The notes under the pieces: model-generated
The model's input: the letters and a program-made list of their open reading frames with translations, nothing else
The model's database searches: none
Told to the model about the DNA's origin: nothing
Source of the DNA: Sphingomonas bacterium
GTDB lineage: Bacteria > Pseudomonadota > Alphaproteobacteria > Sphingomonadales > Sphingomonadaceae
Assembly (NCBI RefSeq): GCF_903643065.1
Contig: NZ_CAHJWX010000010.1
Coordinates: 1-19,230, forward strand
Direction of reading: 5' to 3'
Length of the DNA stretch: 19,230 bases
Program-made: the position numbers and the translations under genes
Shown here: positions 2-18,627 of the stretch, one piece after another
Layout of the letters: each line of letters opens with the position of its first letter
How positions within the stretch are numbered: position 1 is the first letter of the stretch

Positions 2-649
2 GTGCTGCGCCGGGCGTTCGGCACCGATCCGGCGATCACGGCCGCGGCGGCGGCGGCGATGGCGTCGCTGGCCGCGGCGGGCGCGATCATCGTCGATCCG
101 GTCGAGCTTCCGGACGGCATCCTGCCGCTCGATGGCGGGAACATCGTCGATGCCGAGTTCGCGACCGCGTTCGACGCCTATCTGCGCGATGGCTTCATGC
201 CCGGCACCGCGCCGGCGTCGCTGCGGGCGATCCTCGCGTCCGGCGGCTTCCTGCCCGACCATCGTGCTGTGTTGGAAGCGCGCGTCGCGTTCCGGGACTC
301 CGGCGCGCGCGCGGCCATCCTCGCCCGGCATGCCGCGTTGCGCGACAGGCTCGACGCCTGCGCGAGCCGCGCCGCGATCGACCTGTTCCTCCACCCGACC
401 TCCGTCGTCACGCCCGGGTCGCTCGATAACCCGAAGGGCGGCTGGGCACCGGAACTGGCGGCGCGCAGCGGCTGGCCCGCCCTGAGCGTGCCGGCGGGCC
501 GCAGCGATGATGGGGTGCCGATCGGCGTGGAGCTGCTGGCCCGGGCCGGCGGCGAGGCGCTGCTGTTCAGGGCCGGGTTGGCGATCGAACATGGCCGGGG
601 ACCACGCGCCCTGCCCGACCTCTCACTGCCCGGTCTTCACAACGGCTAA
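2..649 (+). CDS. Amidase, C-terminal part (5' end outside window)
   Basis: The frame is open from the left edge, so this is the last 215 residues of a longer protein; the GTG at position 2 is simply the first codon in frame and need not be the start. The C-terminal 80 residues match the end of amidase-signature enzymes (AmiE/GatA type): a hydrophobic strand leading to HPTSVVTPGSLDN, then GWPALSVPAGRSDDGVPIGV and an ELLARAGGEALLFRAGLAIE-type ending. The family hydrolyses carboxamides to acid plus ammonia or amine with a Ser-cisSer-Lys triad. That triad sits in the N-terminal half and is not visible here. The gene ends directly on a strong hairpin (649-676) and converges with the TonB receptor. 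It may supply an amine or acid to the catabolic genes further right, but no operator copy links it to them inside the window. Family call is fairly sure; substrate unknown. Confidence 0.85.
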   Translation: MLRRAFGTDPAITAAAAAAMASLAAAGAIIVDPVELPDGILPLDGGNIVDAEFATAFDAYLRDGFMPGTAPASLRAILASGGFLPDHRAVLEARVAFRDSGARAAILARHAALRDRLDACASRAAIDLFLHPTSVVTPGSLDNPKGGWAPELAARSGWPALSVPAGRSDDGVPIGVELLARAGGEALLFRAGLAIEHGRGPRALPDLSLPGLHNG

Positions 650-703: not shown

Positions 704-3052
704 TCAGAACTTCACGCCGGCCCGGACGCCGTAGACACGCGGCGGTCCGTAGGAGACCTGGATCCGCTCGCGGCGACCGATCACGGCGCTGAACAGCACC
801 GGGGTGTTGCCCAGATTCTCGCCATAGCCTTCGACGAAATACTTGCTCGAATGATCGGTCCAGCGGAGCGAGGCGTCCACCTTGTCATAGCTGTGCTGGT
901 AATCGAGCGGGGTATTGAAGTCAGTCGTGAAATAGCTGCTCGAATGGAGGTAGGTCACCAACGGCGTCACCGTGCCGTTGTCGCCGAGATCGGCGTCGTA
1001 ATAGACCGACAACGTCGTCTTCAGCCGGGGCGATTGCGGAATGCGCTTGCCGGCCAGGTTGACGGAGACGGGATCGGCCGGGGCGTTGGCAGGCCCCGAC
1101 AGGCCGTAGAAGTTGTTGCTGCTGATATAGGTCGTGTATTTGGCATTCAGATAGGCTGCCGTCGCGTCGACATGGAACCCCTTGTAGAATTGCGACCGCA
1201 GCGCGAACTCCGCGCCGTAGCTGCGCGCCTTGCCCGCCGATCCGAAATAGCTCAGCTGCGGCGTGTAGACGCTGATCTGAAGGTTCGAGTACCGGTTGTA
1301 GAATAAGCTCACGTCGGTGGTGATGCGGCCACCCATGAACTGGTTCTTGAGCCCCGCTTCATAGGCCCGCACCTTCTGGGGAGCGTAGCTGGGAAGCGCG
1401 GCATTGTCGTTCACGCCGCCCGATTCGAACCCCGTCGACGCGGTGGCGTACACCATGGTGGTGCGGCTGGGCGTGAACTCCGCCCCGGCGCGCCACGTCA
1501 CGCTGTTGAACTTGGGGCTGCCGGCGGTGGTGGAATCCGGCTTGGTGAAGTTGAACGTCCCCGCCGTCCCCGCTGCGGCTGAATAATAGTCGCTGAACAG
1601 GAACGCCTTCTTCTCGTGGCTGTAGCGGATGCCGCCGATCAGGCGCAGCTTGTCCGGCACGACGAAATACGATGCCTGGGCGTAGCCCGCATAAGCGTTG
1701 GTGTGCAGCGCGATGTCGCCACGGAAGCCGGGGACGTTGAACGACGCCGGCAGGATCTCCTGCTGATACGTCTCGAAGATGTTGTCGTGCAGGTAATAGC
1801 CGCCGATGATCCACTGGAACGGCGTGGTCGACTTGGACGCGAGCTGAAGCTCCTGCGTGAAGGTGCGGCTATGCGTCAGCGGCTCCTGCACGCCCGAGCC
1901 GTAGCCATAGGCCGAGAAGGTCTTGCTGCTCTGGTCGTTGTCGGCGCTGCGGTTGGCAACGAAATCATTATAGCCGGTGATCGACCGTACCGTCGCGAAA
2001 TCCAGATCGTAGGAGATCGAGCCCGAGCCGTAATTCTCGCGGATGTGCTCGAACGGCTGGTAGTTCCAGTCGTTGGTATAGGCGCCGCCGGTCACCGGCA
2101 CACCCGCATCCTGCGTGCCGACGTTGACCGATCCGTTCGGGACGGACGGGTTCACCGCATAGGGCAGGCCGTTGATCGACTGATAGCCCGTGACCGGGTT
2201 GAGGAGCGTGCCCGCGACCTTGTAGCCATAGGAGCCGGCGCCCGCATCGCCGCGCAGCCAGTGACTGGCATGGACCTCCACCACGAGGCGGGAGTCGGGC
2301 GTCCATTTCAGGTTGATGCGCTCGGCATTCTCCTTGAGATCGTTGAGGTAGATGCCCGGCGTGGTCGAATGCACATAGCCGTCGTGATGCTGATACACGC
2401 CGGCGACGCGGACCTGGAGCGTGTCGGACAGGGGCAGATTGACGTAGCCGTCGATGCGCTGCTCGGAGAAATTGCCGAAATCGCCGTTGAGACCGGCGCC
2501 GAACTCCTTCTCCGGCGCGGCGGTCACGACGGAGATATTGCCGCCGAAGGTGTTGCGTCCGTACAGCGTGCCCTGCGGCCCGCGCTGCACTTCCACGCGG
2601 CTGACGTCGAACAGCGGAATGCTCTGCTGCTGCGTGCGGCTCTGGTAGATGCCGTCGATGTAGAAGCCGATGACCGGATCGTTCTGCGCCGACACGAGAC
2701 TGGTGCGCACGCCGCGGATGGCGGGGAAGCTGTCCGATCCCTGGCTGCCCCAAGTGAAGCCGGGCGTGATGAATTCGAGCCGCGCGGCATTGTCGACGTG
2801 AAGCCGGCTCAGATCGGCGGCGGATACGGCGGTGATGGCGATCGGCACGTCCTGCAGCCGCTCCGAGCGACGCTGGGCCGTCACCACGACGTCGCCGGGC
2901 AGTTGCGCATCGGTCGTCGACTCGATCGCGGTCTGGCCGGGCGACACGTTGGTCGTGGTCGAGTCCGCCGTCGTGGGCACGTTCTGCGCGGCGGCCGGCG
3001 CGGCGATGGCGACCAAGGCCGAGGTGCTCAACAGCATCATGCGGTTCACCAT
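704..3052 (-). CDS. TonB-dependent outer-membrane receptor
   Basis: A 782-residue outer-membrane beta-barrel receptor for TonB/ExbBD-driven uptake of a scarce or large ligand. Residues 1-23 are a signal peptide (MVNRMMLLSTSALVAIAAP followed by AAAQ), then a Thr-rich linker. A TonB-box-like DVVVTAQRR lies at about 54-62. The plug domain follows (LQDVPIAITAVS, then IRGVR, and RGPQGTLYGRNTFGG). The remainder is barrel, ending in the expected C-terminal phenylalanine (RAGVKF). An in-frame codon 39 bases upstream gives a charged, non-signal N-terminus, so I start at 3052, where GAAGGGAA precedes the ATG. The length is usual for the family. A LacI-type operator (3131-3144) lies about 80 bases upstream of the start, which ties the receptor to the adjacent lacI gene. 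Ligand unknown: it lacks features that would single out siderophores, and its neighbours are catabolic. Confidence 0.95.
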   Translation of the reverse strand: MVNRMMLLSTSALVAIAAPAAAQNVPTTADSTTTNVSPGQTAIESTTDAQLPGDVVVTAQRRSERLQDVPIAITAVSAADLSRLHVDNAARLEFITPGFTWGSQGSDSFPAIRGVRTSLVSAQNDPVIGFYIDGIYQSRTQQQSIPLFDVSRVEVQRGPQGTLYGRNTFGGNISVVTAAPEKEFGAGLNGDFGNFSEQRIDGYVNLPLSDTLQVRVAGVYQHHDGYVHSTTPGIYLNDLKENAERINLKWTPDSRLVVEVHASHWLRGDAGAGSYGYKVAGTLLNPVTGYQSINGLPYAVNPSVPNGSVNVGTQDAGVPVTGGAYTNDWNYQPFEHIRENYGSGSISYDLDFATVRSITGYNDFVANRSADNDQSSKTFSAYGYGSGVQEPLTHSRTFTQELQLASKSTTPFQWIIGGYYLHDNIFETYQQEILPASFNVPGFRGDIALHTNAYAGYAQASYFVVPDKLRLIGGIRYSHEKKAFLFSDYYSAAAGTAGTFNFTKPDSTTAGSPKFNSVTWRAGAEFTPSRTTMVYATASTGFESGGVNDNAALPSYAPQKVRAYEAGLKNQFMGGRITTDVSLFYNRYSNLQISVYTPQLSYFGSAGKARSYGAEFALRSQFYKGFHVDATAAYLNAKYTTYISSNNFYGLSGPANAPADPVSVNLAGKRIPQSPRLKTTLSVYYDADLGDNGTVTPLVTYLHSSSYFTTDFNTPLDYQHSYDKVDASLRWTDHSSKYFVEGYGENLGNTPVLFSAVIGRRERIQVSYGPPRVYGVRAGVKF

Positions 3053-3130
3053 AACATTCCCTTCATCCGGCGCTCCCTGGCGCCTACCCAAGTAAATCTA
3101 TCAGGCTTCGAAGGGCTGTCTATCGGTGAA

Positions 3131-3144
3131 TGCATTCGGATGCA
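3131..3144. promoter_or_regulatory. LacI-type operator upstream of the TonB receptor (one mismatch)
   Basis: TGCATTCGGATGCA differs by one base from the exact palindrome TGCATTCGAATGCA found at 5505-5518 and 14388-14401. It lies in the leader of the receptor gene, starting 79 bases upstream of the ATG at 3052. The centre retains the CG step typical of LacI-family operators. I infer repression of the receptor by the neighbouring regulator. Confidence 0.75.
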
Positions 3145-3156
3145 GTCGCCATAAAA

Positions 3157-3184
3157 CTTTTATGTTGCTGTAGTGTTTGTGCAA
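3157..3184 (-). promoter_or_regulatory. Possible promoter of the TonB receptor
   Basis: Reading the minus strand, TTGCAC (3184-3179) is followed after 16 bases by TAAAAG (3162-3157). The operator at 3131-3144 would then lie just downstream, around the transcription start. The -35 is fair and the -10 is poor, so this is a guess at the only reasonable hexamer pair in the region. Confidence 0.3.
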
Positions 3185-3293
3185 CACTGGCGTCAGGACA
3201 TTGGATTGTCTGGCAAAATCGTCGGCTGGTCCACCGGCCGGTGACGCAGGCGCGCCGCCGCCGCCTCCCGGCCAACCGTTCCGCAACCTTTTA

Positions 3294-3307
3294 TGATTTC
3301 GAATGCG
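3294..3307. promoter_or_regulatory. Degenerate operator-like site next to the lacI stop codon
   Basis: TGATTTCGAATGCG matches 11 of 14 positions of TGCATTCGAATGCA. The right half (TTCGAATGC) is intact and the left half is decayed. It sits one base beyond the lacI stop codon and about 150 bases from the better site at 3131. It could be an auxiliary site for DNA looping or a chance or decayed copy. Confidence 0.35.
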
Positions 3308-3308
3308 T

Positions 3309-4346
3309 TCAGGTGAGTCGCGCCGAGCTGCCGCGCAGCAATTCTCCTTCGAACAGCCGATGTTCGGCCGGCGTGCCTTCGTTCTCGATGCGCTCCGCCA
3401 GCATGGCGACCGCGGCCTGCGTCATCCGGCGGACGGGCTGGCGGATCGTGGTGAGCTCGTAGCTTGCCCAGCCCGCCGGATCGGACCCGTCGAAGCCGAC
3501 GATCGAAATATCGTCGGGGATCGACAGGCCGAGATCGACCCGCGCGGCATCAATGACGCCGATGCCCATCAGATCGTTCACGCAGATCACCGCCTCCGGC
3601 ATGCCGCCCCGGCTCTGCGCCAGCGCGTGCATCGCCATCTGGCCGCTGGCGTAGCTGAAGTCGCCGCGCACGGTCGCCACGTCCGCGATGCCGTGTTCCG
3701 CCAGCCACCCCAGCGCCGCGCGACGCCGCTCCTCGCCCACATAGCTGTCGCTCGGGCCCGCGACGACTGCGAAGCGCCGGTGCCCGGCGGCCAGCAGGTG
3801 ATCGACCAGCTGGCGTTCGCCCGCCGCCGAATCGCAGGACACGGACGCGGCCAGCCCGCCGCGCGCCGGTCGGTTGTAGAGCACCAGCGGGATGTGCCGC
3901 CCGGCGAACGCCTTGACCTGATCGTCGGACAGCCTGGCGGCGGAGATGACCCCGTCGACGGAATGGCGCCAGACCTGATCGAGGATCGCATCCACATCGC
4001 TCTCGGCGTTGAGCGAGAACAACAGCACGCGCATGTCCCGTTCGGTCAGCTGCCGGCTGAGTTCGGCCAGCACCTCCGGATAGAAGAGGTTGGTCAGCGT
4101 GGAGATCAGCACCGCGACCATGTTGGTCCGTCCCGAGATCAGTCCCTGCGCCAGCGCGTTGGGCCGATAGCCCATCTCGGTGGCGACCTTCAGGATCCGC
4201 TCGCGGGTGGCCGGGGCGATGCTCGCGCCGCTGGCGAAGCACCGTGACACCGCCGATTGCGACACGCCCGCCGCGCGCGCGACATCGTACGAGGTCGCGC
4301 GGCGAACCCGCGCCGTTGAGGCGGATGCCGTCTTCGTCGTTGCCAC
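3309..4346 (-). CDS. LacI/GalR-family transcriptional repressor
   Basis: A 345-residue ligand-responsive repressor of normal family length. An N-terminal helix-turn-helix spans about residues 19-38 (SYDVARAAGVSQSAVSRCF). It is followed by the hinge RPNALAQGL, whose last leucine corresponds to the residue LacI inserts into the central CG of its operators. The periplasmic-binding-protein-like sensor domain fills the rest, with characteristic blocks NLFYPEVLAEL, DGVISAA, VICVNDLMGIGVIDA and DISIVGFDGSDPA. The start is a GTG preceded by GGGGAAG at 6 bases. The gene lies downstream of, and in the same direction as, the cupin gene (114-base gap), so co-transcription is possible. The CG-centred palindromes at 3131, 5502 and 14388 are its likely targets. 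LacI proteins usually sense sugars or sugar-like metabolites, but no glycoside hydrolase is present, so the inducer is open. Confidence 0.93.
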   Translation of the reverse strand: MATTKTASASTARVRRATSYDVARAAGVSQSAVSRCFASGASIAPATRERILKVATEMGYRPNALAQGLISGRTNMVAVLISTLTNLFYPEVLAELSRQLTERDMRVLLFSLNAESDVDAILDQVWRHSVDGVISAARLSDDQVKAFAGRHIPLVLYNRPARGGLAASVSCDSAAGERQLVDHLLAAGHRRFAVVAGPSDSYVGEERRRAALGWLAEHGIADVATVRGDFSYASGQMAMHALAQSRGGMPEAVICVNDLMGIGVIDAARVDLGLSIPDDISIVGFDGSDPAGWASYELTTIRQPVRRMTQAAVAMLAERIENEGTPAEHRLFEGELLRGSSARLT

Positions 4347-4460
4347 CGAACGCTTCCCCGAACCAGGCTCGCCGGCGAACCTATCATCCCGGATCGTGGA
4401 TGACGACCGCCTTAGGCGTCCTGACGGACAGGTCGCCCCGCGTCCCGGGGGGCGCGGCGC

Positions 4461-5480
4461 TCAGGCGAACGTCGGCAGCGCCGGACTCTCGGTCCCGCGC
4501 ACGACGAAGCTGATCGAGGGCACCGACGCCGTGTTGCGGAACGCGTGCGGCAGGCCGACGGGGACGCTCAGCGTGTCGCCCGCCCCCAGCACCAGCGCGC
4601 CGTCGCTCCAGCTCACCTCCAGCGTGCCCTCCTGCACGAACAGCACTTCCGCCTCGTGCCGGGCATGCATCGGGACATAGGCGCCGGTCTGCAAGGTGAG
4701 CCGGCGCATGTTGAAGCCGTGCGGCCACCATCCCTGGATCGGGCCCGGCTGGAAATGATCGGCGGTCGCCTGTGGCGCGATGATCCCCGCTTCCTCGACG
4801 CCGTCGCCCGCCAGCGGCGAGGCGGGGTTGGGGAGTTCCTCCCCGGCGGCGACCACGCACTGCGCCAGCTTTTCCCGGGGCGGCGTGCGAAGATTGTCGA
4901 GGGCCTGCTCGTCCAGGGCCCCCTCCAGTTCCACCTCCGCCAGCGTGTATTCGCCCTTGGACGTGTCGATCAGCCGCCCGCCCTTGGCGAGCTTGAGCCC
5001 ATGGTCGGCCGCCGCCTCGAACACGGCGGGCGCCCAGGTGACCTTGCCCGGATCGTCCTGCCCCAGCACGGTGAAGAGGAAGCCGGTGCCCTGGTCCAGC
5101 TTCTCGAAGCCGCGAAACATGTGGATGGGAACCGAGCAGACGTCACCCGGCCCGATGTCGATCGCGCCGTCCTCCTTGTTGGGCCCGAAGGGCAGGCGCC
5201 AGCGTCCCGAATGAACGACGAACACCTCGGCGGTGTCGTGGCTGTGCTGGGAGTTGACGCACCCGAACGGCTGCCTGGCGGCGCCGATGTTGAAGCCGTG
5301 CCGTTCCGTGATGTGCACGTGCTGATCGGCGCTTTCGGACACGCCGGCGCCGATGATCGTGAAATTCTCTTTTTCCGTCGATCCGGGCGTCTTCGTGTCC
5401 AGAAAGGCCGTGCGGCACGGGATCAGGTCCGCATAGCGCACGAGCCGCGCGGTCATGGCAGCTTGGGTCCAGTGGGTCAC
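4461..5480 (-). CDS. Two-domain cupin protein, possible metal-dependent dioxygenase
   Basis: A 339-residue bicupin of unknown substrate. Domain 1 carries a full cupin motif: G73, H79-S-H81, E85, G92 and a later His at 120. Domain 2 has G266, H272-A-R274, E278, G285 and a clean second motif PVGLPHAFRN (307-316, H312). The second metal ligand of the HxH pair is therefore replaced by Arg in domain 2, with another His one position later. Bicupins include gentisate dioxygenases, quercetinases and non-enzymatic proteins, and nothing here decides among them. I use the GTG at 5480, which has GAGG 5 bases upstream; an ATG at 5456 (residue 9) is an alternative but has no clear ribosome site. A 20-bp perfect palindrome lies 21 bases upstream (5502-5521), shared with the divergent hydrolase operon. 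The repressor gene follows downstream on the same strand. Confidence 0.85.
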   Translation of the reverse strand: MTHWTQAAMTARLVRYADLIPCRTAFLDTKTPGSTEKENFTIIGAGVSESADQHVHITERHGFNIGAARQPFGCVNSQHSHDTAEVFVVHSGRWRLPFGPNKEDGAIDIGPGDVCSVPIHMFRGFEKLDQGTGFLFTVLGQDDPGKVTWAPAVFEAAADHGLKLAKGGRLIDTSKGEYTLAEVELEGALDEQALDNLRTPPREKLAQCVVAAGEELPNPASPLAGDGVEEAGIIAPQATADHFQPGPIQGWWPHGFNMRRLTLQTGAYVPMHARHEAEVLFVQEGTLEVSWSDGALVLGAGDTLSVPVGLPHAFRNTASVPSISFVVRGTESPALPTFA

Positions 5481-5501
5481 GACAGCCTCGCTCGATGGTC
5501 A

Positions 5502-5521
5502 AGTTGCATTCGAATGCAACT
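5502..5521. promoter_or_regulatory. 20-bp perfect palindromic operator in the cupin/hydrolase divergent region
   Basis: AGTTGCATTCGAATGCAACT is perfectly self-complementary over 20 bases. Its core TGCATTCGAATGCA (5505-5518) recurs exactly at 14388-14401 and with one change at 3131-3144. It lies 21 bases from the cupin start and 54 bases before the hydrolase start, so one bound dimer could control both directions. The central CG and palindromic form fit the LacI family, and the lacI gene is the next gene beyond the cupin. Confidence 0.85.
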
Positions 5522-5531
5522 GCGCTAAGAC
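5504..5531 (+). promoter_or_regulatory. Possible promoter for the hydrolase operon, -35 inside operator
   Basis: TTGCAT (5504-5509), part of the palindrome itself, is followed after 16 bases by TAAGAC (5526-5531). Binding at the operator would cover the -35. The -10 is weak (3 of 6), so this is tentative. Confidence 0.3.
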
Positions 5532-5575
5532 ATGACGATGCGTGGCGCAAGCCTGCAGGGGACGGCAAGCGGAAC

Positions 5576-6343
5576 ATGGACGCGACGGCGGACGATCTCG
5601 ACACGCGGTGCCCGCTCGTCCTGCTGCCGGGTACGCTGTGCGACGCGCGCGTGTTCGCACCGCTGATGGAGCGCCTGCCCCCACGGCGTATCTCGATCGG
5701 CGACATGGCTGGTCTCGCCTCCACGCGGGCGCTGGCCGGGCGGCTGCTGGAGCGGGCCCCGCCCGTATTCGCGCTGATCGGCTTCTCGCTGGGCGCGATC
5801 GTGGCGCTGGAGGTCGCCGCGCAAGTCCCCGGACGGGTCGCCGGCCTGGCGCTGATCGGCGGCAACGCGCATGCCCCGACCGCGCCCGACGTCGCCCGTC
5901 GCCGCGCGGAGATCGCCGCGGTCACGTCCGTCGAGCGGTATGTCGGCGAAACGATGTGGCCGAGCTACGTCGCCGACCAGGGGGACGAGCGGCTGCGTCG
6001 AACGCTGATCGACATGGGCAGGGACGGCGGGCACGACGCGTTGCGGCTGCAGACCGAGGTCGCGCTGTCGCGCGCCGACAGCCGGCCCCGCCTGGGCGCG
6101 CTGACCATGCCGACGCTGGTCCTGGCGGGCGCGGCCGACGCGATCAACGATGCCACCGTGCAGCGTCGCCTGGCGGCGGCGATTCCCGCCGCGACCCTGG
6201 TGCTGGTTCCCGGCGCGGGGCATTTCGTGCTCCTGGAACGGCCGGCGGCGTGCGCGCGCGCGGTGATCGGCTGGCTGGGATCGGTGGACGACGGATCCGC
6301 CTTCGACGAAGCTCCACTCGCATTCACCAGGGAGAGGTCATGA
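5576..6343 (+). CDS. Alpha/beta-hydrolase fold enzyme
   Basis: A 255-residue hydrolase with no signal peptide, hence cytoplasmic. The fold is shown by the early strand VLLPGTLCD, the nucleophile elbow GFSLG (Ser71), a late acidic residue in LVLAGAADAIND (Asp188) and the histidine in VPGAGHFVLLERP (His216). Together these make a complete Ser-Asp-His triad. The frame is open further upstream to 5495, but that would put the operator inside the coding region, so I choose the ATG at 5576, preceded by a weak AGCGGA. It is the first gene of a run of four on the + strand and overlaps the next gene by 4 bases (ATGA). The family includes esterases, C-C bond hydrolases and lactonases. Sequence alone does not choose, but the place in the cluster suggests cleavage of an ester, lactone or ring-opened intermediate. 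Confidence 0.9.
   Translation: MDATADDLDTRCPLVLLPGTLCDARVFAPLMERLPPRRISIGDMAGLASTRALAGRLLERAPPVFALIGFSLGAIVALEVAAQVPGRVAGLALIGGNAHAPTAPDVARRRAEIAAVTSVERYVGETMWPSYVADQGDERLRRTLIDMGRDGGHDALRLQTEVALSRADSRPRLGALTMPTLVLAGAADAINDATVQRRLAAAIPAATLVLVPGAGHFVLLERPAACARAVIGWLGSVDDGSAFDEAPLAFTRERS
6331..6337 (+). promoter_or_regulatory. Strong ribosome binding site inside the end of the hydrolase gene
   Basis: GGAGAGG lies 2 bases before the ATG at 6340, with GGAG itself 5 bases away. It is within the last codons of the hydrolase, which ends in the overlapping ATGA. This fixes the start of the tandem-SnoaL gene and indicates translational coupling. Confidence 0.7.
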
Positions 6344-7479
6344 CCGACAACAAGGATCGTCCGATCGCCGGGCCGGACGGCGCCGTGCTCCAGGTGGAAC
6401 GGCGCGACTTCACGCAGCTCGTGCCGACGGACCGGCCGCGCGCGCAGGGCATGCGCGGGTTCGACGACTGCTATACCGACATCGTGGACTATATCATCCG
6501 GTGCACCCACCGGATCTGGGACGAGCGCGACGTCGGCCTGATCTACACGCACTATACGCATAATTGCGTGGCCTACACCACGCTCGGCACGATGTACGAT
6601 CGCGAGACGCACATCCGTGACACGATCCAGCGGCTGGTGGAGTTCCCGGACCGGCGCGGCATGGCGATCCAGGTCGTCTGGAACGGCGACGATCGCGCCG
6701 GCTTCTACACCAGCCACATGACGCACGGGCAGGGCCGTCATACCGAATATGGGGCGATGGGAAGGCCGACCGGGCGCACGTTTATCACCCGCACCGTCGC
6801 GGACTGCATGATCCTGGAGAACCGGATCTACAAGGAGTGGATCGTCCGCGACAATATGGGGCCGCTAATCCAGCTTGGCATCGATCCGCACGCCCATGCG
6901 CTCGATCTCGCGACCAGGAAGTTCGAGCGCGGCGAGCCCGTGCTGGACATATCGGAGAACCGGCGCCTGCTTGGCCAATACCCGCCGGAGGAGGAGGCCG
7001 ATGTCTCCATCGCCAACAACGAGGAGGAGGCGGAGCTGCTGCGCCGGCTCCACCGCATCTACAATCGCCGGCTGTTCGGGACGATCCAGGAGATCTACGC
7101 GCCGACCTGCCAGTGGCACGGGCCGCTGATGCGCGAGCTGTACGGCATCCCGGCCGTGTTGCAGCAGACGATGCGGCTCGTCGCGCTGATGCCCGACTGC
7201 GCGTTCGTGCCGCAGCATATCTGCTCGGTCGAGAGCGAGGAGGGCGGGCGCAAGCATGCCGTGCGCTGGGTGATGGACGGCTCCCATCTCGGCTACGGGC
7301 CGCTGGGTCCGCCGACCGGGCACAAGCTGTTCGTCATGGGCGCCACCCACTTCCACATCGTGGACGGCAAGATCGTCGACGAATGGGTCGTGTACGACGA
7401 ACTGTCGATGCTGGTGCAGATCAAGCTGGCGGACCTGCACCGGGCGGCGCCGTCCGACGGCTATGCCGCATCGCGGTAA
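6340..7479 (+). CDS. Tandem SnoaL-like (NTF2-fold) protein, paralogue 1
   Basis: A 379-residue protein built of two SnoaL-like domains at about 42-180 and 233-362. Each ends with the same signature: PTGR (143-146) then KEWIVRDN and a hydrophobic QLG end, and PTGH (325-328) then DEWVVYDE. SnoaL-like NTF2 folds form cone-shaped pockets that catalyse aldol, hydrolysis, dehydration or isomerisation steps, or act without catalysis; the reaction here cannot be named. The closest relative in sight is the second tandem protein at 11471-12814. In the segment starting MRGFDDCYTDIVDYIIR (residues 38-75) 24 of 38 residues are identical, and both share W-x-GDD-xx-GFYTSH. The gene overlaps the hydrolase by 4 bases and is followed after 95 bases by the transaminase. 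It is cytoplasmic, with no signal peptide. The start is secured by GGAGAGG. Fold confident, function unknown. Confidence 0.85.
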   Translation: MTDNKDRPIAGPDGAVLQVERRDFTQLVPTDRPRAQGMRGFDDCYTDIVDYIIRCTHRIWDERDVGLIYTHYTHNCVAYTTLGTMYDRETHIRDTIQRLVEFPDRRGMAIQVVWNGDDRAGFYTSHMTHGQGRHTEYGAMGRPTGRTFITRTVADCMILENRIYKEWIVRDNMGPLIQLGIDPHAHALDLATRKFERGEPVLDISENRRLLGQYPPEEEADVSIANNEEEAELLRRLHRIYNRRLFGTIQEIYAPTCQWHGPLMRELYGIPAVLQQTMRLVALMPDCAFVPQHICSVESEEGGRKHAVRWVMDGSHLGYGPLGPPTGHKLFVMGATHFHIVDGKIVDEWVVYDELSMLVQIKLADLHRAAPSDGYAASR

Positions 7480-7574
7480 TTGGTCCGGTCGCTTTGGGGC
7501 CAAGCGGCGCTTTCCGCGGGCCCGTGCGGCTGGAAGTACAGGTGGTGGTCAGCCAGCCGAAACGGAGCAGTCTC

Positions 7575-8516
7575 GTGGTCGAATCGACAGCCAATTTCAC
7601 CAAGGGCGCGGCGTATATCGACGGCGCCTACGTCCCTTTCTCCGAGGCCAAGATCTCGGTCGGCGACTGGGGCTTCACGCAATCGGACGTCACCTATGAC
7701 GTGGTGCACGTGTCGGACGGCGCGTTCTTCCGGCTTGAGGACCATCTCGACCGTTTCCATCGCTCGCTCGAAGGCTATCGGCTCGATCCCGGCAAGACCC
7801 GCGACGAGATGCGCGAGATCCTCGCGCGCTGCGTGGCGCTGAGCGGGCTGAAGGACTCCTACGTCGCCATGGTGTCGACGCGCGGGACCTCGCGCGTGTA
7901 CGGCTCGCGCAACCCCGCCGATTTCGCCAACACGTTCATCGCCTACGCGATCCCGTGGATCGACGTGATCAAGCCCGACGTGCAGGAGCGCGGCGCCCAT
8001 CTGCTGGTCGCCACCATTCCCCGCATCTCGCCGCGCTCGCTCGACCCGACCCTGAAGAACTATATGTGGCGCGACTTTACGCGCGGCGTGTTCGAGGCGC
8101 ATGACCAGGGCTATGACACCGCGATCCTGCTGGATCATGAGGGGTATCTGACGGAAGGCGCGGGCTTCAACGTCTTCATCGTCAAGGGCAACACCGTGCT
8201 GACGCCGGATCGGGGCGCGCTCCAGGGCATCACCCGCCTGTCGGTGCTCGACCTCTGCCCGGAACTGGGCCTGGAGCCCCGGATCGCGCCGATCACGTTC
8301 GACGAGCTGATGGATGCCGACGAGGTGTTCACCACGACGACCGCGGGCGGCGTGATGCCCTGCGCCCGCGTCAACGACCGGATCTTCGGCAACGACCGTC
8401 CCGGCCCGATCAGCGTCAAGCTGAAGGAGCTTTATTGGCAAAAGCACAAGGAAGGCTGGCACATGACGCCGGTCGACTATGACAATCCCGAGCAGCCACT
8501 CGCGAAGGCCGCGTAG
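7575..8516 (+). CDS. Fold-type IV PLP transaminase, resembles (R)-selective amine transaminases
   Basis: A 313-residue PLP enzyme of aminotransferase class IV. Visible residues are R60 in DHLDRF (phosphate), K161 in [11 protein letters not shown] (Schiff-base lysine), E194 in [10 protein letters not shown] (pyridine nitrogen), GITR at 218-221 and TTTTAGGV at 253-260. The blocks [23 protein letters not shown] and [16 protein letters not shown], and the tail PGPI...TPVDYDN, recall the (R)-amine:pyruvate transaminase group (ATA-117 type), more than branched-chain or D-alanine transaminases. That comparison is from memory, not a search. The start is GTG 7575 with GGAG at 7564-7567; the frame is open further upstream but would overlap the previous gene with no ribosome site. 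It is third in the + operon, between tandem-SnoaL 1 and DadA. The likely role is removal of an amino group from an R- or D-configured amine. Confidence 0.88.
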
Positions 8517-8563
8517 ACGAGCTGTGCATCGACCGCAGAACGGCCGCGGGAAGGAATGATGGC

Positions 8564-9853
8564 ATGCGGGTGACCGTGCTCGGCAGCGGCGTGATCGGGG
8601 TCACCTCGGCCTATTACCTCGCGAGAGCGGGCCACGAGGTTACGGTCGTCGACCGTCAGTCCGGGCCGGGCCTGGAGACCAGCTATGCCAATGCGGGCGA
8701 GATCAGCCCCGGCTATGCCTCGCCCTGGGCGGCGCCCGGGGTGCCACGCAAGGCGATCAAATGGTTGCTGATGGAGCATGCGCCGTTCGTGCTGCGGCCC
8801 CGCCTCGATCCGGCGATGGTCACCTGGCTCGGGCAGATGCTGCGCAACTGCACCACCGTCCGCTATGCGGTCAACAAGAGTCGGATGGTCCGGCTGGCGG
8901 AGTACAGCCGCGACGAGCTGATCGCGCTGCGCGCCGACACGGGCATCGTCTATGACGATCGCCAGGGCGGAACGCTGCAGCTCTTCCGCGAGCAGAAGCA
9001 GCTCGACGCGATCGGCAAGGACGTGGAGGTGCTGCGGCAGGACGGCGTCGCCTTCGAGGTGCTCGACCCGGCGGGCTGCATCCGCGCGGAGCCGGCGCTG
9101 GGCCAGGTGCGCGACCGGTTCGTCGGCGGCCTGCGGCTGCCCGGCGACGAGACGGGCGATTGCTTCAAGTTCACGGCCGCGCTCGCCGGACTGGCGGAGG
9201 GGCTCGGCGTCACGTTCCGCTATGGCGTGACGATCCGCTCGATCCGCTCGTTCGGCGGGCGGGTGGAGGGGATCGACACCGACGCGGGTCCGATCGAGGC
9301 CGACGCCTATGTGGTCGCGCTCGGCAGCCACGCGCCGCAGATGCTGCGTCCGCTGGGGCTGCGGCTCCCGGTCTACCCGGTGAAGGGCTATTCGCTGACC
9401 GTGCCGATCACGGACGCGAGCCGCGCGCCCGAGTCCACGGTGATGGACGAAAGCTACAAGATCGCCATCACCCGGCTGGGCGACCGCATCCGCGTGGGCG
9501 GCATGGCCGAGATTTCCGGCTTCAGCAGCGACCTTCCCGACAAGCGGCGGAGCACGCTGGAGATGTCGGTGACGGACCTGTTCCCCGGCGGCGACCTCAG
9601 CCAGGCGACGTTCTGGACCGGGTTGCGCCCGATGACCCCGGACGGCACGCCCGTGATCGGGCCGACCAGGCTCGCCAACCTGTTCCTCAACACCGGACAC
9701 GGAACGCTCGGCTGGACGATGGCCTGCGGCTCGGGCCGCGTGCTGGCCGACCTGATCAGCGGCGACGAGCCCGCGATCGTAGCGAGCGATCTGTCGCTCG
9801 ACCGCTATTCCGGCCGTTTCGGTCCGGACGCCGAAGACGCGGCGGGATCGTGA
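8564..9853 (+). CDS. dadA: D-amino-acid dehydrogenase, FAD-dependent (DadA-like)
   Basis: A 429-residue flavoprotein that oxidatively deaminates D-amino acids, passing electrons to the respiratory chain at the membrane face. The N-terminal FAD-binding GSGVIG (7-12) is followed by the acidic end of strand 2 (VVDR). Long stretches agree with E. coli DadA as I remember it: [68 protein letters not shown] and [17 protein letters not shown]. Length is as expected. The ATG at 8564 has AAGGA 8 bases upstream. It is the last gene of the + run, 47 bases after the transaminase, and no alanine racemase (the usual dadX partner) is present, which suggests a dedicated role in this cluster and not general alanine catabolism. 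Substrate may be wider or different from D-alanine. Confidence 0.92.
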
Positions 9854-9893
9854 CGCATGACGCGGCCATCGCCGTCGGCTCGCGGCGGCGTGG

Positions 9894-11393
9894 TCAGGAC
9901 AGGCCTCGACAGACCGCCTGCAACCGCGCGACGCCATCGGTGATCTGATCGGGCGAGAAGGCGCTGAAGCCGAGCGCGATCTGACGATCGGCATCGACCT
10001 CCCGGGCGAGGCTCGACAGCGGCATGATCTCCAATCCTTGCGCGGCGGCTGCGTCGGCGAGGCGATGCGCGCCGATGCCACCGCGCAGCGTTGCGACGAT
10101 CTCCATCCCCGTGTCGGTCTCCTGGGGCACCAGATAATCGGAGAGGTGGGTGCGGACCGCGTCGAGCAGACATGCCTGGCGCCGCAGGTAGAGCTTGCGC
10201 ATCTTGCGGACATGGCTCGCGAAATGACCCTCCTGCATGAAGCGGGCGACGAGCACCTGGTCCAGGATCGGCGAATAGCGGCCGACGACCGTCCGCGCCG
10301 AGACGAAGGCCTCGACCAGCGGTGGCGGCAGGATGGCGAACCCCAGCCGCAGCGCGGGGAAGAGCGTCTTGCTGAACGTGCCGAGATACAGGACGCGGCC
10401 GCTGCGATCCATCTCGAACAGCGTCGGCAGGGCGCGCCCGGTATAGCGGAACTCGCTGTCGTAATCGTCCTCGATGATCCAGCCGTCGACGCGGTCCGCC
10501 CAGTCCACGAGCGCGCGGCGCCGTTCCATGTCCAGCGTGACCCCGGTGGGGAACTGTTTGGAAGGCGTCGTGTACGCCATCCTGGCGTCGGGCGCGCGCC
10601 GCAGTGCCTCGTGGACGTCCATGCCGTGAGCGTCGACCGGCGCCGAGACGGGGACGCTTCCCGCCGCCGTCACGGAGGCGCAGATGCCGGGATAGCCGGG
10701 ATCCTCGCAGAGCACCTTGTCCCCCGCGATCAGCAGCAGCCGGCAGGCGAGGTCGACGGCCTGCTGGACGCCCGCGAAGATGATGATGTCGTCGGCCGAG
10801 CAGGCGATGCCGCGCCCGTCGGCCACATGCGCCGCGATCGCCTCGCGCAGCGGCAGATAGCCCTGCGGATCGCCCTCGCCCATCAGGTCGTTGGCGGTGG
10901 TTGCGTCGAGCCGGCGGTAAATGTCCGCCGCGAGCTTCGCCCAGAGCTGAATGGGAAAGGCGTCGATCGCCGGGAAATTGGAGCGGAACGCCACGGGGCG
11001 GCGCATGTGGCGCAGCGTCGCATGGACCTGCGTGAGCGCGCTGCTGCCCCGGATCGCGCGATCCAGGCTGCCGGCGGCGAGGATCGCGGGATTGATCCGG
11101 CCGTGCGGGTCCGTCCGAACGGCCGTCCGCGCCGGCGGCTGTGGCGCCACATAGGTGCCCGATCCGGACAGGCCCTCGACGAGCCCCTCCGCCGCGAGCT
11201 GTTCGAACGCGAGGACGACCGTGTTGCGCGACACGCCCCAGGCCTGCGCCAGGTCCCGCGTCGACGGTAGCCGCTCCCCCGGACGGATCGTGCCCCGCGC
11301 GATCCCATCCATCACCTCGTCACGGATCTGCCGCCAGAGCGGAACATCCTTGCGACGCCCGAGATCGAGCGAGAGAGCATCCAATAGGGGCAC
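9894..11393 (-). CDS. MocR/PdxR-type GntR regulator with aminotransferase-like domain
   Basis: A 499-residue transcription regulator joining a GntR winged helix (about residues 17-83: VPLWRQIRDEVMDGI, then ERLPSTRDLAQAWGVSRNTV and GSGTYV) to a fold-type I aminotransferase domain. The latter keeps the PLP site: IIEDDYDSEFRY (307-317), SKQFPTG (278-284) and the lysine in LGTFSKTLFPALRLGF (K342). Such proteins sense PLP or a PLP adduct and include PdxR, GabR, TauR and DdlR. The frame reaches a GTG at 11399, but the ribosome site GAGGGA is only 1 base from it and 7 bases from the GTG at 11393, so I choose 11393. It converges with dadA (40-base gap) and lies 77 bases after tandem-SnoaL 2 on the same strand. 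Its position between PLP/D-amino acid genes suggests it controls part of the cluster. Target sites were not identified. Confidence 0.92.
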   Translation of the reverse strand: MPLLDALSLDLGRRKDVPLWRQIRDEVMDGIARGTIRPGERLPSTRDLAQAWGVSRNTVVLAFEQLAAEGLVEGLSGSGTYVAPQPPARTAVRTDPHGRINPAILAAGSLDRAIRGSSALTQVHATLRHMRRPVAFRSNFPAIDAFPIQLWAKLAADIYRRLDATTANDLMGEGDPQGYLPLREAIAAHVADGRGIACSADDIIIFAGVQQAVDLACRLLLIAGDKVLCEDPGYPGICASVTAAGSVPVSAPVDAHGMDVHEALRRAPDARMAYTTPSKQFPTGVTLDMERRRALVDWADRVDGWIIEDDYDSEFRYTGRALPTLFEMDRSGRVLYLGTFSKTLFPALRLGFAILPPPLVEAFVSARTVVGRYSPILDQVLVARFMQEGHFASHVRKMRKLYLRRQACLLDAVRTHLSDYLVPQETDTGMEIVATLRGGIGAHRLADAAAAQGLEIMPLSSLAREVDADRQIALGFSAFSPDQITDGVARLQAVCRGLS

Positions 11394-11400
11394 GCGCACG

Positions 11401-11406
11401 TCCCTC
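11401..11406 (-). promoter_or_regulatory. Ribosome binding site deciding the MocR-type start
   Basis: GAGGGA on the minus strand is 7 bases from the GTG at 11393 but 1 base from the in-frame GTG at 11399. The spacing favours the shorter protein by two residues. Confidence 0.6.
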
Positions 11407-11436
11407 GTTCGAGCCAGCCCCGGACAAAGGTGGCAT

Positions 11437-11462
11437 CACCCCGCCCGAACGCAAGGCGGGTG
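11437..11462 (-). terminator. Weak hairpin between tandem-SnoaL 2 and the MocR-type gene
   Basis: On the minus strand CACCCGCC and GGCGGGGTG can pair with one bulged G around a 9-base loop. It is followed by sequence with only a TTT. This could be a partial terminator or attenuator, or a chance GC hairpin. Confidence 0.25.
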
Positions 11463-11470
11463 CCTCGTCC

Positions 11471-12814
11471 CTATCCCGCCAGCGCGCTGCTTGTCGCCGG
11501 AGCGTCGCGATAGAGCTGCTGGAGCACGAAGAACTCGTTGAACATCGTCCACTCCTCCTGGATCTTCTGGTTGATGATCGAGAAGTGGCTGACGCCCCAC
11601 ATCCGGACCTTGCGGCCCGTCGGCTTGCCATAGATGCCATGGCCGGTGTGCGTGCCGATGAGCGACCAGCGCGCGGCGACCATATAGCCTTCCACGTCGT
11701 TGCCCATCCAATAGACGTCGTCGATGCTGTAGGCGAGATCGGGAAACATCGCGAGCCGCGCGATGATCGATTGCATATAGTCGCCGATGCCGAACAAGGT
11801 CCGGCCGCTGGGTCCGAACGCCCGGATATTGGGCGCGCAATATTCGCGCACCGTCCCGATCAGCCGCCAGTTCCAGACGTAATGGAGCATCCGCCGCACG
11901 AAATCCTCGGGGTCGAATTCCTTGCTGGTGGACGGGGGGAGGTGGGACGGCTTGCTCTGGCCGCGCAGCCGATCGGGCTCGCCGTCGCCGATCAACGCGA
12001 ATGCGTCGACATCGACGGTGTTGGCCGTCTCGCGCGCGACCTGACGAACATCCAGGCCGAGCTGCTGGATCATGCTGGCGGAGTTCTCGATGACCCACTC
12101 GTCGAAGATCTCGTTGCCGATGGTGATGCAGTTGGCCACGACCCACCACGTACAGCGACGGCCGGTCGGCGGCCCGAACGCGCTCCAGCCGGTGTTCGTG
12201 CCGACGAAGAAGCTGCGGTGCGAGGTGTAGAAGCCGTTCTCGTCATCGCCCGCCCAGATCACCTCGGTCGGGATCCAGCGCAGGTCGGGGAAGGCGTTCA
12301 TCAAGCCCAGGCTGCCGGCGATCACGGCATCCCGGCCACAGCGCACGCTCTCCTCGTCGCGGATCAGGATATTGTGCTTGTAGAAGTCGTAGACATAGCC
12401 GATGTCCTTTTCCTCCCAGGCACGATGCGTGCCGCGGACGATGAAGTCGACGATGTCGGTATAATGGTCTTCGAAGCCGCGCATCGATTGCTTGCGCGCG
12501 CCCGGGTAGTGCAGCTGCTGATCGGTGCTCATCCGGTTGCGCAACGAGATGGAGAAGTCCGTCGGGTTCTTGCGCAGGTGCGGGTTGGGGCGGAAATCGT
12601 GGATCGCGGCGCGCGCCCGGTCGGCGGGCGGAAGATACGCCGCCATCGGCTGGTTGCCCCAGTTCGTGATGCGGTTCCGATCCCCGTCGGCTGCGGCATC
12701 GTTCCCGGTCGCCGCCGATGGGGCGGCGGCGCCGGGATCGCGCGCGCCGGGCTTGGGCGCGGCGCCCTGGTCCGTCGCGCTCGCGCCGGTCTTCGTCGTG
12801 TCGGTCGACATCAT
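11471..12814 (-). CDS. Tandem SnoaL-like (NTF2-fold) protein, paralogue 2
   Basis: A 447-residue protein with two SnoaL-like domains (about 115-253 and 303-435), each with the same signature as paralogue 1: GPPTGRR then DEWVIENS, and GKPTGRK then EEWTMFNE. It opens its first domain with MRGFEDHYTDIVDFIVR, nearly the same as paralogue 1, and shares WAGDDENGFYTSH. Residues 1 to about 50 are Ala, Gly, Pro, Asp and Thr rich, with no signal-peptide character, and look disordered. That tail accounts for most of the extra length. GGGAG lies 4 bases from the first ATG and 7 from the second (12811), so the start may be one codon later. It follows the MFS gene on the same strand after 102 bases and probably shares its operator-controlled promoter. 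The reaction is unknown; a hetero-oligomer with paralogue 1, or acting on successive intermediates, is an inference. Confidence 0.85.
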   Translation of the reverse strand: MMSTDTTKTGASATDQGAAPKPGARDPGAAAPSAATGNDAAADGDRNRITNWGNQPMAAYLPPADRARAAIHDFRPNPHLRKNPTDFSISLRNRMSTDQQLHYPGARKQSMRGFEDHYTDIVDFIVRGTHRAWEEKDIGYVYDFYKHNILIRDEESVRCGRDAVIAGSLGLMNAFPDLRWIPTEVIWAGDDENGFYTSHRSFFVGTNTGWSAFGPPTGRRCTWWVVANCITIGNEIFDEWVIENSASMIQQLGLDVRQVARETANTVDVDAFALIGDGEPDRLRGQSKPSHLPPSTSKEFDPEDFVRRMLHYVWNWRLIGTVREYCAPNIRAFGPSGRTLFGIGDYMQSIIARLAMFPDLAYSIDDVYWMGNDVEGYMVAARWSLIGTHTGHGIYGKPTGRKVRMWGVSHFSIINQKIQEEWTMFNEFFVLQQLYRDAPATSSALAG

Positions 12815-12916
12815 GGCTCTCCCATCAATACGGCATCAGGTGATGCGGCGCGGCCCGGTCGTCCCGGTCGCGGCGCATCGAATGGTTGGACGGCGCTGCT
12901 CGGCAAGGCCAGAGGC

Positions 12917-14179
12917 TTACCGCGCCATCGTCGGGGTTCGGCGCAGGCGCTGCAGGGTCTCGCGCTGCAGCAGCCAGATCACGCCCGCCAGACTGAAGCT
13001 GACGCTGGCGAGCAGCATCGACGCGCGCATGCCGAAGCGTTCGGCCACGGCGGCGGTGATCAGCGGCGCGAAGAAGCTGATGATCCGGCCCCAGTTGAAG
13101 ATCGAGGCCGCGGTGGAGCGCAGATGGACGGGGTACAGCTCCGCCATCCACGGACCCCAGATCACGCTGGAGCAGATCGTTCCGCCATAGACGAAGCCGA
13201 CCAGCCGCAGCCAGACGAGGTTGCTCGGCGAGAGCAGGAAGACGACGATCGCGGCGGCGGCGATCAGTAGCCCGAGCGCGTTGAAGCGCCGGCCGAGGCG
13301 ATCGGAGAGCCATCCCCACAGGAAGCTCCCCGCGATATTGCCCGCGAACTGCCAAGCCAGCAGATCGCCCGCGATTGCCGGCGAGAGACCACGCGGACCC
13401 GTGATATAGGTCGTGAACCAGCCGCTGAACGCCTGGTAACCGAAGAAATTCAACCCCGTCATCAGCGCCAGCAGCAGCGTCTGGCGGCGCAGCGCGGGAT
13501 GGAACAGCTCGCGGACCGGCAGGCGGCCGCGACCGCCTTCGGGCGCCGGATCGATCTGGTTGGGGACGATCAGGAACACCAGCACGGCCAGCGCCAGGGG
13601 CGGCACGCCGCCGATCCACAACAGGCTGTGCCAATCCCGCTGACCGAACCTTCCCAACGCCACGCCCAGCAGGATGATGGAGCAGCTGAACGACGCGCTC
13701 AGCATCCCCGCGAGCTTGCCCCTGGTCCGGTCGTGGAACAGCGCGACGTAGATGCCCACGGCGACCGGGAACTCCGCGCCCGCGAAGAAGCCGAGTAGCA
13801 CGCGCTGCGCCAGCAGCGCCGGATAGCTGCCCACCAGCACGCCTGCGATCAGCATCAGCGCATAGCCCGCGATCACGATCGTCAGCGCGTTGCGGCGCCC
13901 GAAGCGGTCGGCGAACTGACCCATCAGGATCGCACCGGTCAGCGCGCCCGCGCCCTGCGCCGAATAGGCGGACCCCGCCTGTACGAGCGAGAGATGAAGG
14001 TCCTGCCGGAAGAACGGCCGCAACACGTCGACCGTGTTCCAGGCCCAGCCATAGAAGAACTCGTTGAGGAGCAGCAGCCCGAAGATCAACAGCCGCCGGT
14101 TGAGCGACAGCTCGGAACGGTATGGACCGGCGTCCTCGACCATGGCACCGGTGACGTCGACCGCGAGCGTATCCGTCAT
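12917..14179 (-). CDS. Major facilitator superfamily transporter, metabolite:proton symporter type
   Basis: A 420-residue inner-membrane permease with about 12 hydrophobic segments in two halves. The loop between helices 2 and 3 has the MFS motif GQFADRFGRR (87-96), and the second half repeats it as GWLSDRLGRR. EFPVAVGIYVALFHDRTRGKLAG in the helix 4-5 region and WMAELYPVHLRSTAAS in the second half resemble the sugar/aromatic-acid symporter branch. The DGYD/DGFD acidic motif of aromatic acid permeases in helix 1 is not present (here NEFFYGWAWNTVDV). The ribosome site is weak (TAGGGCG). The upstream region has a promoter with the LacI-type operator between its -35 and -10, so this is the most clearly repressor-controlled gene in the window. 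It probably brings in the compound, or a breakdown product, that the TonB receptor passes into the periplasm. Confidence 0.92.
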   Translation of the reverse strand: MTDTLAVDVTGAMVEDAGPYRSELSLNRRLLIFGLLLLNEFFYGWAWNTVDVLRPFFRQDLHLSLVQAGSAYSAQGAGALTGAILMGQFADRFGRRNALTIVIAGYALMLIAGVLVGSYPALLAQRVLLGFFAGAEFPVAVGIYVALFHDRTRGKLAGMLSASFSCSIILLGVALGRFGQRDWHSLLWIGGVPPLALAVLVFLIVPNQIDPAPEGGRGRLPVRELFHPALRRQTLLLALMTGLNFFGYQAFSGWFTTYITGPRGLSPAIAGDLLAWQFAGNIAGSFLWGWLSDRLGRRFNALGLLIAAAAIVVFLLSPSNLVWLRLVGFVYGGTICSSVIWGPWMAELYPVHLRSTAASIFNWGRIISFFAPLITAAVAERFGMRASMLLASVSFSLAGVIWLLQRETLQRLRRTPTMAR

Positions 14180-14379
14180 GTCGCCCTACCGTTCCGCTTG
14201 ATGGAGCCGGAGCGGGTGAGCCGCCTGCGCGACATCGACGCCGATCGACTCGCACCGGACCCACCCTGGCGAGTCGCGGTCACCGGCTGGCGCGCCATGT
14301 CGCGCGGGCAGAACCGGCTACCGCCACCGACAGGTCCCGATTGGCACGACGTGCGCGTGAGGATGTTCCATGGGCGACG

Positions 14380-14409
14380 ATTGTATGTGCATTCGAATGC
14401 AATCGTCAA
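14380..14409 (-). promoter_or_regulatory. Promoter of the MFS operon with operator in the spacer
   Basis: On the minus strand TTGACG (14409-14404, 5 of 6 with consensus) is followed by 18 bases and then TACAAT (14385-14380, 5 of 6). The 14-bp operator fills the spacer with 2 bases to spare on each side. A bound repressor would directly exclude RNA polymerase. This is the best promoter I can see in the window. Confidence 0.75.
14388..14401. promoter_or_regulatory. Exact LacI-type operator in the MFS promoter
   Basis: TGCATTCGAATGCA is a perfect 14-bp palindrome identical to the core at 5505-5518, almost 9 kb away. It lies between the -35 and -10 elements of the MFS promoter. Confidence 0.85.
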
Positions 14410-14484
14410 GGCGGTCATCGCCGGCGCTGGTTACGCGACGTCGACACACGGACGGCCAACGCCGCGCCGTCGGTCGACCCCGGC

Positions 14485-16836: not shown

Positions 16837-16888
16837 CGATCGTTCCCGAGATGAAGCGGCTGCCGCCCGGTCTTAGCAGCCGGCGCGA

Positions 16889-16917
16889 TCGCTAGCGAGG
16901 GCCGGCACGGCCGTGCC
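16889..16917. repeat. Two short perfect palindromes in a divergent promoter region
   Basis: TCGCTAGCGA (16889-16898) and GGCACGGCCGTGCC (16904-16917) lie 5 bases apart in the 155-base gap between the thiamine enzyme and the small SnoaL-like gene. They could be operator sites for an unidentified regulator. In such GC-rich DNA the second could arise by chance. Neither resembles the TGCATTCGAATGCA element. Confidence 0.35.
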
Positions 16918-16991
16918 CCGCGCATTGCCGCTTGCGCGACGGGCGACCACGGGGCCAAGGGAGCGCGGCGCGAGGGCAGGGGAGAGCGACG

Positions 16992-17594: not shown

Positions 17595-17600
17595 CAAGGA

Positions 17601-18602: not shown

Positions 18603-18627
18603 GATCGGCTCTCCTGGTGTCTGGTGG

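Follow-up and report, generated by a model that had tools for sequence, protein, structure and literature searches.

A candidate hybrid catabolic regulon in a Sphingomonas contig, with amine genes set in a widespread and apparently undescribed HisD-SnoaL gene cluster

We analysed 19,230 bases of DNA from the Sphingomonas bacterium assembly GCF_903643065.1. This stretch, called the window here, is the whole of contig NZ_CAHJWX010000010.1 (C10), and the contig ends cut through the gene system that we describe. We propose that the window holds a hybrid catabolic regulon controlled by a single LacI repressor, in which an amine module was inserted into a regulon of tandem SnoaL and histidinol-dehydrogenase-like (HisD) proteins; we put the probability of this reading at roughly 0.57. 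The module consists of a class-IV transaminase, a DadA-type D-amino-acid dehydrogenase and a MocR-type regulator. The HisD-SnoaL core itself looks like a widespread catabolic pathway that is apparently undescribed. Fifteen window genes were called from open reading frames (ORFs) and profile searches. These searches confirmed the gene list of a sequence-only reading made earlier: a receptor, LacI, a bicupin, a hydrolase, two tandem SnoaL proteins, the transaminase, DadA, MocR, a major facilitator superfamily (MFS) permease and an amidase. That reading had taken the genes as a candidate undescribed catabolic system that acts on an amine or amide of R or D configuration. The first half of this proposal is supported by a conserved neighbourhood and by the lack of a description in the part of the literature that was searched. 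The second half is not supported for the system as a whole, since the transaminase, DadA and MocR genes are each missing from all of the related neighbourhoods counted below.

To define the core, neighbourhoods were counted in the best 80 of 291 genome-collection stretches with relatives of tandem SnoaL/NTF2 protein A (SnoaL A; 6340..7479, + strand; PF07366 in two stretches). Flanks reached up to 10 kb, and 16 of the 80 loci were shorter than 15 kb. A HisD gene lies near SnoaL A in 70 of the 80 loci, LacI in 66, a cupin in 61, an alpha/beta-hydrolase in 58, an aldolase of the HpcH or RraA type in 48, and an amidase and a short-chain dehydrogenase/reductase (SDR) in 44 each. A further tandem SnoaL gene is found in 37 loci and at least two HisD genes in 36, and 58 loci possess at least four core partners. 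The hydrolase and SnoaL A are read as a single frame in 16 of the 80 loci, and they form a single protein in 7 of 17 aligned proteins. In the window, SnoaL A likewise occurs together with LacI (3309..4346, −; PF00356, PF13377), the bicupin (4461..5480, −, with an alternative ATG start at 5456; PF07883/PF00190) and the alpha/beta-hydrolase (5576..6343, or from a start at 5495, +; PF00561, PF12697), the combination that marks the core cluster.

The core cluster is spread over sphingomonads, enterobacteria, rhizobia and Acidobacteria, with a related form in Deinococcus, and annotated records with similar gene sets come from Novosphingobium, Pantoea, Sinorhizobium, Martelella and Roseibium. Gene order varies among the sphingomonads, enterobacteria and rhizobia, so the linkage is not explained by descent of one frozen block. 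In Deinococcus, related tandem SnoaL genes are accompanied by a nitrilase-type C-N hydrolase that is unrelated to the amidase and lies 3' of HisD; an amidase was looked for in the Deinococcus set and none was found. The presence of an unrelated C-N hydrolase in place of the amidase argues for a genuine amide step. LacI and the sugar-type ATP-binding cassette (ABC) transporters in rhizobia and other relatives suggest a sugar-like substrate. In the PDB, the cluster HisD proteins match dihydroxypropanesulfonate (DHPS)/sulfopropanediol dehydrogenases best. No description of the core cluster was found by title or by the start of the abstract, in a literature collection that leaves out most subscription journals.

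Two further observations concern genes next to this system in relatives. In Roseomonas OT10, a gene for an N-methyl-tryptophan-oxidase-like amine oxidase (10823-11986 of locus L105) lies directly 5' of a tandem SnoaL gene and scores 482.8 bits against a cut-off of 257, adding another amine-oxidising enzyme beside this system. A triose-phosphate isomerase (TPI) gene by three enterobacterial clusters (L054, L073 and L077) was considered as a shared erythrulose step and dropped on account of its neighbours in L054 and L077, which we take to be the usual chromosomal neighbours of tpiA.

The window genes are probably joined into one regulon by a set of predicted LacI-type operators. A perfect palindrome, TGCATTCGAATGCA, stands at 5505..5518 in the divergent promoter of the cupin and hydrolase genes, and a second perfect palindrome at 14388..14401, 5' of the MFS-SnoaL B-MocR genes. 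A third site with one mismatch, TGCATTCGGATGCA, lies at 3131..3144 in the TonB receptor promoter, and the mismatch search gave a possible weak second operator, with three mismatches, at 3294..3307. Searching the 2.63 Mb assembly for the pattern TGMATWCGAATGCA with up to one mismatch returned four places, three in the window and one on contig C192, while the reversed control pattern returned zero places in the same assembly. With up to three mismatches allowed, the window contains 4 sites, compared with 0.35 expected per mononucleotide-shuffled window.

The operators are also conserved in relatives. All 22 related loci examined have at least one site with up to one mismatch, and the site in the cupin/hydrolase promoter (up to two mismatches) is kept in 20 of 21, the exception being L030. 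The 21 sphingomonad-type loci, 432 kb in all, yield 57 sites with up to one mismatch, against 2 in the 589 kb that make up 30 further core loci, mostly enterobacterial and with a more distant LacI. Novosphingobium sp. EMRT-2 (L087) is a culturable relative that has this operator. The earlier view that the genes form one regulon is thus supported by the operators and by the conserved neighbourhood.

The transaminase, DadA and MocR look like guest genes in this core regulon, judging from their distribution: relatives of each (E ≤ 1e-5) are absent from all 80 core loci. The transaminase (about 7575..8516, +; PF01063), whose start at 7575 was picked to fit the 313-aa length of close homologues, resembles (R)-amine transaminases in the PDB ranking. 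The top match is 6snl (258.7 bits), and the (R)-named enzymes 6xwb (247.0) and 3wwh (244.4) are close to it, while classical D-amino-acid transaminases score far lower (4pbc, 76.5; 1daa, 75.6 bits). The same top group includes the branched-chain-named 8isc (246.4) and the 'D-aminoacid aminotransferase-like' 8xiy (255.1), so the names do not settle the substrate. DadA (8564..9853, +) scores 702.8 bits against NCBIfam NF001933, well past the cut-off of 383, and is by this measure a clear predicted D-amino-acid dehydrogenase. The third gene encodes a MocR/PdxR-type GntR-aminotransferase regulator (9894..11399, −; PF00392+PF00155). The D/R agreement noted in the sequence-only reading is therefore plausible for the transaminase and DadA, by the PDB ranking and NF001933 respectively, and has no bearing on the core. 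To our knowledge, the native roles of (R)-amine-type transaminases are poorly known. Among the matches listed in the literature, seen in part, there was nothing to the point on such a role.

Outside the window, the guest genes keep other company. In its own family, the transaminase was found (E ≤ 1e-60) in 1 of 149 genomes, which is its own, and in none of the 148 others. Among 38 genomes or records bearing core or SnoaL loci, picked from 80 loci in genomes and 10 on plasmids, three have transaminase relatives at E ≤ 1e-40, 41-47% identical, and the four stretches of about 19.5 kb that surround these relatives yielded no SnoaL A. In the order of Devosia, a close transaminase (E ≤ 1e-130) occurs in 6 of 397 genomes. 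In four of these six loci, four genes for a polyamine-type ABC transporter come after the transaminase, as does a MocR gene whose product shows 59-65% identity to the window's MocR; in the remaining two, the ABC genes are more distant and we could find no MocR. None of the six stretches contains SnoaL or HisD genes. Salipiger shows the same transaminase-ABC-MocR arrangement, with a MocR 53% identical to the window's. One of the six Devosia-order loci (L140, 75% identical) has a DadA gene close to the transaminase, as does Ensifer (L117, 63-68%). This gene order indicates that the transaminase and MocR belong together elsewhere as a separate, predicted operon. The polyamine-type ABC transporter is absent from the window and had no match in its own genome, a weak negative at 72% completeness.

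In the window, the guest genes sit closely among core genes. SnoaL A, the transaminase and DadA follow one another on one strand with intergenic gaps of less than 100 bases, and the MFS, SnoaL B and MocR genes follow one another with gaps of 102 and 71 bases. Given this position within its likely operons, the R/D enzymes may serve the regulon in this genome. Recent import judged by composition was dropped as a line of evidence, as third-position GC is uniform over all window genes (0.87-0.93) and gives no signal.

Several core genes missing from the window are found on other contigs of the assembly. On C192, the fourth operator is followed by a MetE-II-like gene, an HpcH aldolase gene and the start of an amidase gene running off the contig end; this amidase-like N-terminus was assigned by reading, and the window opens with the end of an amidase gene (2..649, +, C-terminal part, truncated by the contig end; PF01425). 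HisD1 is found at the end of contig C268, and the window closes with the SDR gene (18628..19230, −, truncated by the contig end; PF13561) that adjoins HisD1 in relatives, where the two are partners. The contig order is probably C192-C10-C268; no overlap was found between the contig ends, the two amidase pieces included. The window SDR is 74-83% identical to the cluster SDRs of seven sphingomonad loci and 50-62% to those of enterobacteria and rhizobia, and the amidase shares 46-61% identity with its counterparts in sphingomonad-type loci and 32-38% with enterobacterial ones. Of 15 loci with the same order of LacI and cupin, 13 have a second HisD gene, HisD2, between the two. HisD2 is not at its usual place in the window, where the gap between LacI and the cupin measures 114 bases.

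The far side of the fourth operator is occupied by another set of genes (2300-5046 of the C192 locus L111, +), with RpiB/DerI-like, TPI-like and DhaK-like members, a possible erythrulose branch. The RpiB/DerI-like product comes close below the cut-off of the DerI-type erythrulose-4-phosphate isomerase model NF051858 (213.6 bits; cut-off 240). The DhaK-type kinase, resembling dihydroxyacetone kinase, is encoded third in this set, which starts beside the operator. The statement that no sugar kinase is present consequently stands within the window and fails for the set on C192. The MetE-II-like gene on the near side (970-2088 of L111, −; PF01717) has counterparts in 6 of the 80 core loci, among them L080 and L082, where neither HpcH nor RraA was seen; its product is possibly a demethylase or a C-C lyase.

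Taken together, these genes suggest how the hybrid regulon might work. A small sugar-like compound, perhaps with an amide, would be imported via the TonB receptor and the MFS permease, and the compound or a derivative would release LacI repression. HisD and the SDR could then oxidise hydroxymethyl and secondary alcohol groups, the amidase and the alpha/beta-hydrolase could remove an N- or O-linked part, and the tandem SnoaL proteins and the bicupin could isomerise or open the intermediate. The HpcH/RraA aldolase would finally cleave a 4-hydroxy-2-oxo acid by a retro-aldol reaction to central metabolites. More tentatively, the transaminase and DadA might perform amine removal in place of HisD2, which is absent at its usual site, and MocR might sense this amine branch.

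Several points weigh against the hybrid regulon. Its substrate and enzyme activities are predictions, and amidase-family activities vary, so the core enzymes could act on a nitrogen-free compound. Binding of the palindrome by LacI is likewise deduced, from conservation and position, and the operon membership of the transaminase, DadA and MocR from strand and spacing only. Two related loci, L007 and L080, have no HisD between LacI and the cupin, yet no transaminase either. The HisD search of the 72% complete assembly gave a single match and no separate biosynthetic HisD, which makes the absence of HisD2 weak evidence; HisD2 may lie on an unassembled part of the genome. The 80 loci are also the closest of the 291, including the 16 short ones.

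The most serious competitor, which we nevertheless hold to be unlikely, takes the core as a route for breaking down a polyol or sugar acid without nitrogen and the three guest genes as a passenger amine module that is controlled by its own MocR and has no part in the pathway. That the module exists with its MocR on its own elsewhere and never beside the core in the 80 neighbourhoods agrees with this, as does the erythrulose-type isomerase/kinase set beside the fourth operator. The position of the genes argues the other way: the transaminase and DadA lie closely behind SnoaL A on the same strand, and MocR lies just as closely behind MFS and SnoaL B. The core is moreover accompanied by an amidase or an unrelated C-N hydrolase, and a search of this genome for the module's ABC transporter found none, a weak point in an incomplete genome. 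A single pathway dedicated to an amine or amide of R or D configuration, with every listed gene essential, follows the view of the sequence-only reading, and we consider it improbable. It would account for an (R)-amine-transaminase-like enzyme, DadA and an amidase in one LacI regulon, but the first two and MocR are beside the core in none of the 80 loci. The few transaminase relatives in core-bearing genomes or records (3 of 38) have no SnoaL A around them. We therefore rejected such a pathway as the core; the proposal had itself named unlinked genes in relatives as evidence against it, and these three genes are indeed unlinked.

Two further explanations deserve less credit. By chemical reasoning from compound structures, the core could be a pathway for a sugar-like nitrogen compound with an amide and with a hydroxymethyl group next to either an amine or a tertiary alcohol; fungal or cyanobacterial mycosporines, for instance mycosporine-glutaminol, and related aminocyclitols would be examples. 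The tandem SnoaL proteins would then carry out the ring reactions, HisD would convert amino alcohols to amino acids in the manner of histidinol oxidation, HpcH/RraA would split a tertiary hydroxy acid, and the (R)-amine transaminase would have been drafted in here. We regard this as a long shot, and no bacterial mycosporine-breakdown genes were found by title among the matches listed in the literature, itself seen in part. An assembly chimera, with two unrelated pieces in one contig of a metagenome-type assembly, is the least credible explanation of all. The assembly does consist of 486 contigs with 2.28% contamination, at 72% completeness, but third-position GC is even across the window and the same perfect operator flanks the guest genes on both sides, at 5505 and 14388.

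SnoaL A is central to the conserved system. It has 1302 homologues at E ≤ 0.001 but occurs in few genomes of its own family (2 of 298 at E ≤ 1e-120, its own included), which fits patchy inheritance. Its predicted structure has a mean pLDDT (predicted local distance difference test) of 70.2, with a confident SnoaL fold in the second half and residues 1-75 below 50. The model agrees with a SnoaL/NTF2 fold and is too uncertain to suggest a mechanism, and an alignment of the SnoaL halves gave no usable catalytic residue.

Tandem SnoaL/NTF2 protein B (SnoaL B; 11471..12814, −; two SnoaL stretches) is an accessory member of the core system. Its relatives inside core clusters are 46% (L028) and 44% (L101) identical, and a relative with 50% identity lies between the LacI and TonB-receptor genes of a member of the family (G038, L093). 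The expected co-occurrence of the tandem-SnoaL pair is thus seen in L028 and L101, whereas its co-occurrence with the transaminase, DadA and MocR is not, none of these being found there. SnoaL B was found in 5 of 298 genomes of its own family at E ≤ 1e-60 (its own included), in its own genome only among 385 genomes of the class at E ≤ 1e-100, and in none of 19 genomes from the genus of a Devosia genome, a search without a positive control. Homologues of SnoaL B (91%) and of the transaminase (96%) exist on other contigs, which does not establish linkage of the pair, and no linked homologues were seen among the 120 best matches of each. In the Ensifer locus L101, sugar-kinase-, FAD-dehydrogenase- and DeoR-like genes (13552-18605, assigned by sequence reading) lie 5' of the SnoaL B gene, and L028 likewise has a DeoR-like gene next to its SnoaL B relative.

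The remaining features complete the map of the window. The TonB-dependent receptor (704..3052, −; PF00593/PF07715) is present in sphingomonad-type loci, mostly at 49-71% identity and in a few at 26-36%. The MFS gene (12917..14179, −; PF07690) has counterparts immediately 3' of SnoaL A in several sphingomonad loci, such as L008, L010 and L014. A PDB search with the bicupin matched only quercetin dioxygenase (yxaG; E 1.6e-05). The right part of the window contains, besides the SDR gene, an aldo/keto reductase gene and two genes without counterparts in the 80 core loci. One encodes a 783-aa pyruvate-dehydrogenase E1/transketolase-like protein of the homodimeric type (14485-16836, −), above Pfam cut-offs and far under NCBIfam cut-offs. 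The other encodes a third SnoaL-fold protein, with a single SnoaL_4 domain (16932-17594, +; PF13577).

A widely conserved core that lacks a description in the literature searched, as far as titles and abstract openings go, points to a common compound with an undescribed breakdown route. By sequence, its HisD proteins come nearest to HpsN, the DHPS/sulfopropanediol dehydrogenase of the hps pathway and a HisD-family alcohol dehydrogenase, with which they align at the GQAEHG and SEH motifs. Unlike that system, many core clusters have at least two HisD genes (36 of 80 loci), and the SnoaL, amidase, bicupin, aldolase and LacI genes around them presumably differ from the hps genes. The SnoaL-type polyketide cyclases IdmH, AclR and SnoaL share the fold of one SnoaL half. 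They are single-domain proteins, whereas the window proteins are tandem and stand in a catabolic gene setting; no polyketide synthase domain was found among the 20 window frames that were profile-scanned. The core accordingly gives tandem SnoaL proteins, labelled 'ester cyclase' in databases, a catabolic setting. The window's MocR shares its GntR-aminotransferase architecture with the rhizopine MocR, and rhizopine (moc) catabolism was rejected as a candidate, since MocR scores 431.6 bits against the NF052281 cut-off of 650.

The nearest relatives of the guest genes are the operons of a transaminase, PotABCD-like genes and MocR in the order of Devosia and in Salipiger, where the transaminase is 75-78% and MocR 53-65% identical to those of the window. 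The window differs from these operons in that it has no ABC transporter but has LacI operators, SnoaL genes, a TonB receptor and an MFS permease. If the hybrid regulon is real, it represents an (R)-amine-type transaminase drafted into another regulon; if the mycosporine or aminocyclitol idea were true, the system would provide a physiological setting for this class of transaminases.

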